Positions 4,103 through 42,856 of a stretch of DNA of 64,000 bases are shown one piece after another. A program made the position numbers and the translations under genes. The stretch is from positions 248,001 through 312,000 of the forward strand of contig QWHH01000002.1 of NCBI GenBank assembly GCA_021404785.1, in the 5' to 3' direction. The DNA comes from Lysobacterales bacterium PRO7. Its GTDB lineage: Bacteria; Pseudomonadota; Gammaproteobacteria; Xanthomonadales; Rhodanobacteraceae. Under the pieces are notes generated by a model. That model saw nothing but the letters and a program-made list of their open reading frames with translations, searched no databases and was not told where the DNA came from. Position 1 is the stretch's first letter. Each line of letters begins with the position of its first letter.

Positions 4103-4104
4103 CC

Positions 4105-4189
4105 GTCATTCCGGCATGGATTGCCGGAATCCAGTTGCCACGGATGGCGTCCATGCAGTCTGGATCCCGGCAATCCATGCCGGGATGAC
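4105..4189. repeat. Double-hairpin palindromic repeat, copy A
   Basis: Two 30-base arms, 4105-4134 and 4160-4189, are inverted copies of each other with 28 of 30 bases matching. Each arm is itself a hairpin: a 9-base-pair stem (ATTCCGGCA with TGCCGGAAT in the left arm) around a 5-base loop. The left loop TGGAT and right loop ATCCA are complementary. The element fills the gap between the convergent PilZ and radA genes and starts 3 bases after the PilZ stop. Related copies: 8143-8259, 21245-21350, 39132-39214. Confidence 0.9.
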
Positions 4190-8035: not shown

Positions 8036-8142
8036 GCGAGTTCTCGTCAAGCAATGTCGACGATGATACTCAGCACCGTCTCACCGCGCGATACGATAAC
8101 CTTGTGGATAAGCTGTGGGGAGATAAGCGGTCACGACAAACC

Positions 8143-8259
8143 GTCATTCCGGCAGGGACTGCCGGAATCCAGAAGCCATGGACGGCAACATATCGTGATC
8201 GTAAAGAGTGACTACAGCATCCATGCAGTCTGGATCCCGGCATTCCATGCCGGGATGAC
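8143..8259. repeat. Double-hairpin palindromic repeat, copy B
   Basis: The left arm is 8143-8172 and the right arm 8230-8259, separated by 57 bases. Arms again form ATTCCGGCA/TGCCGGAAT-type and ATCCCGGCA/TGCCGGGAT-type hairpins. Identity with copy A extends from the right arm into the spacer (the ATCCATGCAGT stretch just before it). It lies between dnaB and the rplI terminator, and the remaining bases of this 281-base gap show no gene. Confidence 0.88.
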
Positions 8260-8270
8260 GAGCAAGAATA

Positions 8271-21236: not shown

Positions 21237-21244
21237 CAAACGCT

Positions 21245-21350
21245 GTCATTTCGGCATGGATTGCCGAAATCCAGTTGCCATGGATGGCAGTCCCATCAGA
21301 ATTATTCACGTCCATGTGTTCTGGATTCCGGCAGCCCCTGCCGGAATGAC
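21245..21350. repeat. Double-hairpin palindromic repeat, copy C
   Basis: Arms 21245-21274 and 21321-21350 are separated by 46 bases. In the left arm the stem is ATTTCGGCA with TGCCGAAAT: relative to copy A both strands of the stem changed (C to T and G to A), a compensatory pair keeping the hairpin. It fills most of the gap between tdh and the next gene. Confidence 0.88.
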
Positions 21351-21399
21351 GAGCAAAAGCATTCATCCCCGATTCCGGCGCCATCGCCAAAATGGTCGC

Positions 21400-38358: not shown

Positions 38359-38470
38359 GGCGGATTCCGGATCGGGGAAAGTCGCCTATTTTGCCAGATT
38401 TGGCAGTCGTCTCGCGGCTTGAGACATGCGGCGGATAGCGTTGCCGCACCACCCGGAGGACAATTGCTCC

Positions 38471-41400
38471 ATGCCGCTCGATAACTTTCACCCTGCCGTT
38501 GCTGCGTGGTTCGAAAGCGCTTTCCCCGCGCCTACGCCTGCGCAGGAACGTGCGTGGCCGGCGATCCAATCCGGCCGCCATGCATTGATCGCTGCACCGA
38601 CCGGATCGGGCAAGACGCTCGCCGCCTTCCTCGCCGCGATCGACGAACTTGTTTGGCGCGGGGTCGCCGGGCAACTCGCCGACGAAACCGCCATCGTTTA
38701 CGTCTCGCCACTCAAGGCGCTGTCGAACGATGTACAGATCAACCTCGAAGCACCGCTCGCCGGCATCCGCGACAAATTGTTCGAGATGGGCTTGCCGGAC
38801 GTGGAAATCCGCGCCAGCGTGCGCACCGGCGACACACCACAGGCCGAACGCAACGCGATGAAGCGGCGCGCACCGCATATCGTGGTGACCACCCCCGAGT
38901 CACTGTACATCCTGCTCGGATCGGAATCCGGCCGCGCGATGCTGGCTTCCACGCGTAGCGTGATCGTTGACGAGATCCATGCGCTGGCACCCAGCAAGCG
39001 CGGTGCGCACCTGGCGTTGTCGCTGGAACGCCTCGATGCATTGTGCGGGCGGCCGTTGACGCGAATTGGCCTGTCGGCAACACAGAAACCCGTCAGCGAA
39101 ATCGCGAGGTTCTTGATTGGCTCTTCGGATCGTCATTCCAGCGAAAGCTGGAATCCAGCTCTTGAGCATACCGCCGAAGAGCAAGAGCTGGGTTCCCGCC
39201 TGCGCGGGAATGACGAGCAAAGCAAGTGCGAAATCGTCGACGTCGGCTTCACCCGCGACCGCGACCTCGGCATCGAACTGCCGCCGTCGCCGCTTTCGGC
39301 GGTGATGTCCGGCGATGTGTGGATGCAGGTCTACTCACGACTTGCAGAACTGATCCGCGAACATCGCACCACGCTGATCTTCGTCAACACGCGGCGCATG
39401 GCCGAGCGCCTCGCCCGGCATCTGAGCGAACTGCTCGGCAAGGACGCTGTCACTTCCCATCACGGCTCGCTCGCGCGTGAACAACGCCTTGCCGCCGAAC
39501 AGCGCCTCAAGCGCGGCGAACTGCGCGCGCTGGTCGCCACCGCATCGCTGGAACTGGGCATCGATATCGGCGATGTGGATCTCGTCTGCCAGATTGCCTC
39601 GCCGCGTGCGATCGCGACCTTTTTGCAACGCGCCGGCCGTGCCAACCATGCGGTCGATGGCATGCCGAAAGCACGGCTGTTCCCGACCTCGCGCGACGAC
39701 CTGGTCGAATGTGCGGCCTTGCTAGACGCCGTGCGGCGCGGCGAGCTCGACACCTTGCATGTCGAGAAGAATGCGCTCGATGTGCTTGCCCAGCAGGTCG
39801 TTGCCGAGGTTTCCTGCCGCGAATGGAACGAAGCGGAACTGTTCGCGGTGATCACGCGCGCGTACCAATTCGCGCAACTGGCGCGCAAGGACTTCACCGC
39901 CATCGTGCGCATGCTCGCCGACGGTTACACGACGCGGCGCGGACCGCGCGGCGCCTACCTGCATCGCGACGCGGTCAACGGCGTGTTGCGCGCGCGGCGC
40001 GGCGCGCGCCTGACCGCGATCACGTCCGGCGGCGCGATTCCCGACACCGCCGACTACGAAGTCGTGCTGGAACCGCAAGCCCAGCGCGTTGGCACCGTGC
40101 ACGAGGATTTCGCGGTCGAGTCCATCGCCGGTGACATTTTTCAGCTTGGCAACACCGCGTACCGGATTTTGCGCGTGGAACGCGGCAAGGTGCGCGTCGA
40201 AGACGCGCAAGGCGCACCGCCGACGATTCCATTCTGGCTCGGCGAAGCGCCGGGACGCACGGATGAACTCTCGTTCGCGGTGTCACGGTTGCGCACGGAA
40301 ATTTCCGAGCACTTCAATGCTGACGCGAATTCGGCGCCAGCGTGGTTGCGCGGTGAGATCGGACTGTCCGACAGCGCAGCGCAACAGATCGCCGATTATC
40401 TCGGCGGCACCAAGGCAGCGTTCGGGATGTTGCCAACGCAGACAGAACTCGCAATGGAGCGTTTCTTCGACGAATCCGGCGGCACCCAGCTCATCATCCA
40501 TACGCCGTTCGGCAGCCGCATCAACCGCGCCTGGGGACTGGCCTTGCGCAAGCGCTTCTGCCGCAGCTTCAATTTCGAACTGCAAGCCGCGGCCACCGAG
40601 GATGCAATCATCCTGTCGCTGTCGACCAGCCACAGCTTTCCGCTCGAGGACGTCACCCGCTTCCTGCACTCGAACAGCGTGCGTCATGTATTGATCCAGG
40701 CTTTGCTCGACGCGCCCATGTTCGGCGTGCGCTGGCGCTGGAATGCGGTTACGTCGCTCGCCCTGCCGCGCTTCGCCGGCGGATCGAAAGTACCGCCGCA
40801 GTTGCAGCGGATGAAATCGGAGGATTTGCTTGCCGCGGTTTTTCCGGATCAGGTCGCGTGCCTGGAGAACATCGTCGGTGAACGCCAGATTCCCGATCAT
40901 CCGCTGGTTGCGCAGACCCTGCACGATTGCCTGCACGATGCCATGGACATCGACGGCCTCGAAGCGCTGCTGCGACGCATTGAAGGCGGCGAAGTCCGCT
41001 TCGTCTGCCGCGACCTGACCGCACCCTCGCCGCTTGCCGCCGAAGTGCTGACCGCGCGGCCTTATGCCTTCCTTGATGATGCGCCGCTCGAAGAACGCCG
41101 CACACAGGCGGTAATGAGTCGGCGCTGGGGCGATATCGAATCGACCGAGGATTTCGGCCGGCTCGATCCGGATGCGATAGCCGCCGTGCGCGAGGAAGCA
41201 TGGCCGCAGGCGCGAACGGCGGACGAACTGCACGAAGCACTGATGGGGCTGGGATTTCTGACCGACACCGAGGTGCGCGCGAATATCACATGGCCAGGCT
41301 TGTGCGAGGAGTTGATCGCGCAGCGGCGTGCGGCGCGTCTGTCGGATTTGATCATCGCTGCCGAAAGCCTTCCGCAATTTGCGGCAATCTTTCCAGACGC

Positions 41401-42856
41401 ATCGATCGATCCACCGATCATCGCTCCCGCCGAATTCACTGAACACGAATGGACGCGCGAATCTGCTCTGGCCGACCTCGCGCGTGCGCGCTTGACCGGA
41501 CTTGGTCCTTTGCGCGCCGAACTGATCGCGCTAACGCTGCATCTTCCACAAAGTGACATCGATACCGCCCTGCTCGCGCTGGAACGCGAAGGTACCGTGA
41601 TGCAGGGCCACTTCACGCCCGGATTGGATGCCATCGAATGGTGTGATCGGCATTTGCTCGCGCGCATCCATCGCTACACCGTGCAGCGCCTGCGTCGCGA
41701 GATCGAACCGGTCGAACCGCGCGATTTCATGCGCTTTCTGTTCAATTGGCAGAAAGTCGGAGCCGATGCGCGGGGCGAAGGCCCGGATGCTCTGGCTGCC
41801 GTGCTCGCGCAACTGGAAGGCTTCGAAGCGCCGGCGGCGGCGTGGGAAGCGGAGATCCTGCCCGCGCGCATCGCCGGTTACGAGATTTCCTGGCTCGATG
41901 ATCTGTGCACAGCGGGTCGCATCGTGTGGTCGCGGTTGCGCCCACATGCGCCAAGCGGCGCCGAGCACGGCAGCGGGCCCGTGCGCGCGACGCCTATTGT
42001 GCTGCTGCAACGGCGCAATCTGAAGCTCTGGAATTCGCTTTCCACGACAGCGGATGAAACGACTCCGGCACTATCGTCGCGCGCGCAAACGGTCGCGGAC
42101 TGCCTGCGTGCGCACGGCGCTTCGTTTTTCGATGAGCTGCTGGCTGGCACGAAACTGCTGCACGTCGAACTGGAGGAAGCACTGGCCGAACTCGTTGCCG
42201 CGGGACTGATCAACTCCGACAGCTTTGCCGGATTGCGCGCGCTGCTGGTACCGCAATCCAGGCGTCCATCGCCGAATCGCCGCCGCGGGCGCCGCACTGC
42301 CTTGCTTGGCATTGCGGATGCTGGAAGATGGTCGCTGCTGCGGCGCTCCGCATCTGGCGATCAGGAAAGCCGGCCCGAGACAGTCGAACACATCGCCCGC
42401 ACCCTGCTGCGCCGCTACGGCGTGATCTGCTGGCGCCTGCTCGCACACGAAGCGGACTGGCTGCCGCCATGGCGCGACTTGATGCGCGTGTACCAGCGAC
42501 TGGAAGCGCGCGGCGAGATCCGCGGCGGGCGCTTCATCGCCGGACTCTCCGGCGAACAATTCTCCTTGCCCGAAGCGATTGCGCCGTTGCGCGCGATTCG
42601 TCAACGCTCGCTTGATGGCGCCTTCGTCGCCGTTTGCGGTGCCGATCCGTTGAACCTCGTCAGCAACGTCCTCGCCGGGAAAAATGTTCCCGCACTGACC
42701 GGATCACGCATCCTCTATCGCGACGGCCTGCCCATCGCGAGCCTGGTATCCGGTACCTTCAACGCGCTCGAAGCGATGGATGCCGCCGCAGAATGGAAGG
42801 CCAAATCCTTCCTGCTCCGAAGCGGCGAGCGCGAGCCCGCCGCCGCAACCATCTAG
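38471..42856 (+). CDS. lhr: Lhr-type ATP-dependent superfamily 2 helicase with an in-frame repeat insertion
   Basis: A very large helicase, 1461 residues from ATG 38471 (GGAGG 11 bases upstream; ORF starts at 38426). RecA1: Walker A APTGSGKT (K48), DEIH 167-170, SAT 202-204. RecA2 includes [17 protein letters not shown] and QRAGRANH. The Lhr winged-helix and C-terminal DUF4921-like regions follow, full Lhr length (E. coli 1538). Residues 221-248 are translated from palindromic repeat copy D (39132-39214), between SAT and the RecA2 domain. The helicase is otherwise intact; Lhr acts in DNA repair and RNA-DNA unwinding. Confidence 0.93.
39132..39214. repeat. Double-hairpin palindromic repeat, copy D, inside lhr
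   Basis: Arms 39132-39158 and 39188-39214 are inverted copies. The left hairpin is ATTCCAGC-GAAA-GCTGGAAT; the right is TTCCCGC-...-GCGGGAA. A further CTCTTG/CAAGAG pairing extends the long stem. It is translated as R221 to D248 of Lhr without stop or frameshift. The stem bases differ from copies A-C with pairing preserved. Confidence 0.88.

Follow-up and report, generated by a model that had tools for sequence, protein, structure and literature searches.

How does a palindromic repeat come to lie inside the reading frame of a working helicase gene, and what becomes of the stretch of protein that receives it? The question is raised by lhr, the gene of the large helicase-related protein, in a stretch of 64,000 nucleotides from the genome of Lysobacterales bacterium PRO7 (genome G000; the whole stretch is hereafter the window). 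The gene product passes the Pfam cut-offs for DEAD, Helicase_C, WH_Lhr, DEAD_assoc, WH3_Lhr and WH4_Lhr, and among solved structures it matches PDB 7lhl_A (E 5.8e-185), the Lhr of Mycobacterium smegmatis; both the domain set and the alignment with a solved Lhr place it among the Lhr proteins. Against the NCBIfam model PRK09751 it scores 661.7 bits, below the cut-off of 1496, and so it fails as an equivalog of PRK09751. Residues are numbered from the ATG at 38471, and the features of the locus are as follows.

38471-42856, + strand: lhr, large helicase-related protein, 1461 aa (Pfam domain set, PDB alignment); an alternative upstream ATG lies at 38426
39077..39130, + strand: end of RecA1, from the SAT motif (residues 202-204) to the last helix (208-220 in the model) (sequence, model)
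39131..39214, + strand: in-frame palindromic insert, translated in silico as R221-D248 (sequence, fold, short linkers in relatives, pLDDT)
39131..39157, + strand: CGTC unit 1, made of CGTC, stem ATTCCAGC, loop GAAA, stem GCTGGAAT and tail CCA, with 8/8 stem pairs
39158..39188, + strand: spacer with complementary inner arms, core TTGAGCATNCCGCCNAAGAG (sequence)
39189..39215, - strand: CGTC unit 2, inverted, made of CGTC, stem ATTCCCGC, loop GCAG, stem GCGGGAAC and tail CCA (sequence)
39227..39412, + strand: start of RecA2, from CEIVDVG to FVNTRR (sequence, model)

An earlier note on this DNA had placed the element at 39132..39214; the element is present, but it starts one base earlier and occupies 39131-39214, the last base of its closing CGTC being 39215, one past this interval. 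The translation of the open reading frame bears out the statement that the insert runs through lhr in frame as R221-D248, with neither a stop nor a frameshift, and that it begins 16 residues past the SAT motif. The stem of unit 2 contains seven Watson-Crick pairs and one wobble in the RNA of one strand; at its first position, one strand reads A-C and the other G-T. The predicted RNA fold of the insert has an energy of -51.1 kcal/mol (z -8.0), and none of 200 shuffles folded equally well. Three of the six frames are open across the whole element, and in shuffled versions of the 84-nt insert a given frame is open 37% of the time.

Judged by its sequence, the insert is a dimer of CGTC-type palindromic repeats, a further member of a described class. 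The CGTC-tagged REP family 1 (BMC Genomics 2013, PMC3733652) shares with it the CGTC end, a stem of 8 bp, a loop of 4 nt and the CCA tail; as in that family, the lhr element forms an HH dimer, the predominant arrangement, with the CGTC ends outside (HH being defined in that paper for GTAG dimers) and has two A-T pairs at the start of the stem, with 8/8 pairs in unit 1 and 7 pairs in unit 2 (PMC3733652). The terminal CGTC is found in both units (39131-39134 and 39212-39215), and the repeat is present in multiple copies in the genome. The GTAG REPs mobilised by RAYT are different in that the lhr element ends in CGTC instead of GTAG and that no RAYT (Y1) gene was found in the window's genome. A search of the 64-kb window against Rfam gave no family at the gathering threshold. 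Three other dimers, all of the 7-nt-loop subfamily, lie in the window.

4104..4189, + strand: apparently intergenic CGTC dimer (sequence)
8142..8260, + strand: apparently intergenic CGTC dimer (the longest spanning frame is without a Pfam family)
21244..21351, + strand: apparently intergenic CGTC dimer (sequence)

These three copies have a 7-nt loop and a different spacer, whereas the lhr copy has 4-nt loops; the earlier description of them as the same element thus holds for the architecture (two CGTC hairpins with the CGTC ends outward), and not for the subfamily. In the genome as a whole, the unit GTCATTCC(N8-24)GGAATCCAG has 48 exact copies at 44 loci, and the reversed control has none. Most of these units belong to the 7-nt-loop subfamily, the 4-nt-loop copies being fewer; the 48 loci inspected include four with weaker units, one of which is misplaced. 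Frames that run across the element and have at least 50 residues on either side of it exist at 16 loci. Pfam coverage extended to ten spanning frames and lhr, with loci L372, L376, L383, L388 and L015 left out; two of the ten were murD and uup, two (Fpg and GyrB) had domains only downstream of the element and six had no family. In another member of the genus, G015, CGTC units end several stretches of about 655 bp (L333-L342, L344) as inverted pairs, and the stretches share sequence. A dedicated CGTC transposase was sought there by reading 11 stretches for frames, and no consistent gene was seen by eye, so these stretches look like a composite non-coding repeat.

The place of the insert in the protein was examined with solved and predicted structures. 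Both the domains and the model agree with its earlier placement between the two RecA domains, in the RecA1-RecA2 connector. In the solved Lhr 5v9x this place takes up 9 residues (244-252), against 41 (220-260) in the window's Lhr; the gap-free alignment of residues 218-252 with an unrelated Lhr, which would have spoken against an insertion, was therefore not seen. The AlphaFold2 model, based on 40 sequences, has a mean pLDDT of 78.7 and a pTM of 0.71, and residues 220-250 are its only stretch of at least three residues with pLDDT below 50. This stretch falls between the last RecA1 helix (208-220) and the first RecA2 strand (254-257), for which reason the insert is best seen, in terms of the model, as an unstructured loop. 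When 29 Lhr proteins were compared over 719 reference residues (two do not reach residue 584, and a third entry at 719, the reference end, was left out), insertions of at least eight residues followed reference residue 218 in 20/29 proteins, palindrome-free linkers such as those of G019 and G037 included, and reference residue 584 in three (G004, G011 and G037). The connector is in this respect a special site within Lhr. The rarer second site, at reference residue 584 (G004 L045, G011 L060), holds a peptide in G004 that appears by eye to be of palindrome type.

Across 17 genomes of the same genus, linker lengths range between 6 and 55 residues. The linker is 6-11 residues long in five (G001, G002, G005, G006 and G008) and 37 residues, by the same measure, in G000. 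The window's CGTC element is present in three of the 17, namely G000, G016 and G012, which agrees with the expectation of an insertion of about 28-33 residues limited to few relatives. Other genomes carry other palindromes in the linker: a GGGAGAGGG-type palindrome in G009, G004 and G013, another type in G011 and G015, a third in G007 and G014, a fourth in G003 and, by eye, a single CGTC-like hairpin in G010. A search of 11 genomes with up to two mismatches allowed matched the spacer core TTGAGCATNCCGCCNAAGAG exactly only in the lhr genes of G000, G016 and G012; all other matches carry two mismatches.

In an Lhr tree of 20 rows, computed with the linker left out, G009 branches as sister to G000+G016 (support 100/100) and G007+G014 as sister to G012 (99/98); G009 bears an insert unrelated to the CGTC element of its sisters. 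Constraining G000, G016 and G012 to group together was rejected (p-AU 6.6e-8), as was the grouping of G009, G004 and G013 (p-AU 3.9e-8), and that of G011 and G015 was not rejected (p-AU 0.14). Since the spacer is common to G000, G016 and G012 and their clade is rejected, either the insert would be ancestral and the sister lineages would have exchanged it for others, or it would have passed from one lineage to another; an independent origin in G012 and in G000/G016 appears unlikely, because the spacer is shared and otherwise absent. In a test of synonymous sites that was chosen after the data had been seen and involves small numbers, the insert differs between G000 and G012 at 4/22 sites against 338.6/707.2 in the flanks (binomial p 0.004), and between G016 and G012 it is likewise below the flanks (p 0.0003). 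Plain neutral descent from a common ancestor does not fit this low divergence, which favours a younger age (a later insertion), transfer or constraint over plain inheritance, insofar as so few sites can tell. No recombination tract was seen around the insert in 60-column windows.

The best reading of these sequence comparisons is that permissive loops collect selfish palindromes, which would be translated and tolerated. For the locus itself, we consider it rather probable (about 85%) that a non-autonomous CGTC repeat was inserted in frame in the RecA1-RecA2 connector of Lhr, is translated and tolerated, and that permissive loops of this kind act as landing pads. A CGTC repeat of two hairpin units, with CGTC outward, would have entered a short connector in an ancestor within the genus; it would be transcribed, probably into an mRNA that folds here, and translated as an unstructured loop of 28 residues, with the helicase still working. 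The element being open in several frames, only in-frame, stop-free copies in permissive loops would survive, and such loops would remain open as landing pads, in which palindromes arrive, settle inside one another, lose parts and give way to others. The tolerated intragenic insertion proposed at the outset gains support from the open frame, the small number of relatives with the element and the position in a loop.

The wider family provides further cases. Among 234 genomes searched, 199 had a match and 145 linkers were read; the linker has at least 35 residues in 74/145 genomes and in 11/23 genera. The linker of G127 contains a CGTC element nested inside an older insert; that of G218 contains a CGTC element with two mismatches in one unit and the other half decayed (whole-insert z -1.0). 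Exact CGTC units elsewhere in the genome number 1 in G127 and 19 in G218. Short linkers such as those of G202 and G225 have, by eye, the look of longer inserts that lost the DNA between their arms. The neighbouring family was searched as well: of its 149 genomes, 83 gave any match, and some of these are paralogues to judge by their weak scores. Most of the Lhr matches there continue across the linker site; of 15 places where the match is split, two are short (13 residues) and most others have little or no fold, G284 (z -7.2, 104 residues) and G296 (z -5.8, 113 residues) being the most strongly folded. The linker of G284 (L429), 104 residues in total, contains a tandemly repeated peptide with PEGEGVKSAS-like units.

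In genus g17 (L219-L233), an insert core DLFA (DLFT in one genome) is kept in 15/16 genomes, and the palindromes decay in some of them. This conservation, together with a pN/pS of 0.48 for the insert in nine g17 genomes (0.11 in the flanks), could mean that the inserted peptide alters what Lhr does, or adds to it, and that selection maintains it. We regard this as unlikely, as near relatives lack the insert or have a different one and the CGTC insert is of low confidence in the model, and a pN/pS below 1 is not separated from relaxed constraint.

Another possibility is that inserts gather at the lhr site because a transposition enzyme prefers its DNA as a target, and not because the place tolerates them. 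Several palindrome types do occur at the same codon region, and in G127, G131 and G138 the insert looks by eye as if it had entered an older one. However, a similar site exists in murD, an unrelated protein context. The murD gene of G000 contains an in-frame CGTC dimer (L391:347-423; G000:C14:30246-30322) between a conserved N-terminal strand and the DIVIKSPG motif. The span from WGxGREG to DIVIKSPG, as read by one expression, has 56-59 residues in six members of the genus, 69 in two, 79 in G000, 91 in G012 and 94 in G015 (type not classified); four more genomes, for which a looser expression was used, appear short; the set read leaves out G016, and G009 gave no match. At the site where G000 has the CGTC dimer, the murD of G012 (L445) has an SPLP/GERG peptide of palindrome type. 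The resemblance of this pattern to that of lhr favours tolerated loops over a target specific to lhr. The uup gene of G000 carries a single weak CGTC unit (L350:1599-1625, G000:C10) at the point where the second ABC domain gives way to the C-terminal domain, and residence in frame there is probable from the sequence; the CGTC copies in lhr, murD and uup all have 4-nt loops. Moreover, Y1_Tnp (PF01797, RAYT-type), the only transposase class searched, was not found in the window's genome (99.53% complete), nor in 7/10 genomes searched. A preferred target is consequently quite improbable.

It might also be supposed that the connector is an ordinary fast-evolving, GC-rich, disordered linker that drifts in length, and that the palindromes in it are coincidental. 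The long linkers without a fold in genera g42, g12 (G189) and g22 would agree with this, as would four g17 inserts that have no fold any more (G128, G130, G134 and G135, z -0.4 to 0.3); in total, 24 of the 73 long linkers scored fail the threshold of z < -3. Nevertheless, the other 49/73 pass it (median -4.0 over the set), against 1/73 (median 0.44) among controls of equal-length upstream coding sequence from the same lhr genes. Coincidence also accounts poorly for the 48 copies of the window's unit with no control hit, for a second palindrome pattern with copies in 26/28 genomes (four control hits, in three of these) and for the finding, for the CGTC type, of both dispersed copies and short linkers in relatives; this explanation is very doubtful.

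That the insert is missing from the protein, through excision of the mRNA hairpin or ribosome hopping, is hardly credible despite the strong hairpin (-51.1 kcal/mol) and a change of the lhr frame within the insert of G114, since excision or bypass would not need an open frame, whereas 145 of the 146 family Lhr loci fetched keep the frame open across the linker (G018, among the 145, has a masked stretch), and since the insert has a pN/pS of 0.48 (<1) in the nine g17 genomes, with 0.11 in the flanks. The frame change in G114 (L250, a single-contig genome) reflects a genuine break or else an error in the sequence. The open frame at nearly all of these loci argues that the inserts would be translated and that Lhr is probably selected to stay whole.

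Repeats of this kind inside genes have precedents. The Rickettsia palindromic elements, brought up by the earlier note, are an apt one: they are described as palindromes lying in frame in genes of unrelated proteins (PMC10969869), as the lhr insert does; they belong to another bacterial class, here one slot is reused by unrelated palindromes, and the likeness drawn is that of in-frame position. A closer precedent is offered by CGTC repeats, among which RPE-4 and RPE-6 of Rickettsia are counted; family 1 of these repeats is described as showing no link to transposase genes (PMC3733652). The same paper reports CGTC-tagged REPs inside repair genes, comparable to the copy in lhr, and mentions insertion at the same site once, for recB of X. 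campestris and X. oryzae, at about the same place; its main text does not contain the word lhr, and the reuse of a site by several palindrome types across a family is the feature added here (PMC3733652). The enterobacterial RU elements (127, 168 and 103 bp), likened here by description, are small mobile sequences with open frames that occur inside annotated genes, and a recurrent site is not stated in the abstract of the paper (PMC2759123). No title among the matches listed for literature on Lhr, family repeats, in-frame palindromes and intragenic REPs names lhr as a repeat site. The kind of event is thus known, as CGTC repeats in repair genes, and the reuse of one loop by different palindromes across a bacterial family was not found described.

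A bolder extension of the landing-pad reading, which we put forward tentatively and consider possible rather than probable, is that in this bacterial family certain loops, of which the Lhr connector is the clearest, act as nurseries, where one unrelated palindrome after another enters in frame, nests in its predecessor, is shortened and makes room for the next, and where some peptides, such as DLFA in g17, may be co-opted after the palindrome has decayed. With one loop, several palindrome types and many lineages, the locus would be a natural experiment with many replicates instead of a one-off curiosity, from which it may be measured how often selfish DNA is tolerated in proteins, how long it persists and whether it is ever used. 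The presence of different repeats at one spot suggests that one segment of a functional protein can be rewritten again and again by parasitic DNA.
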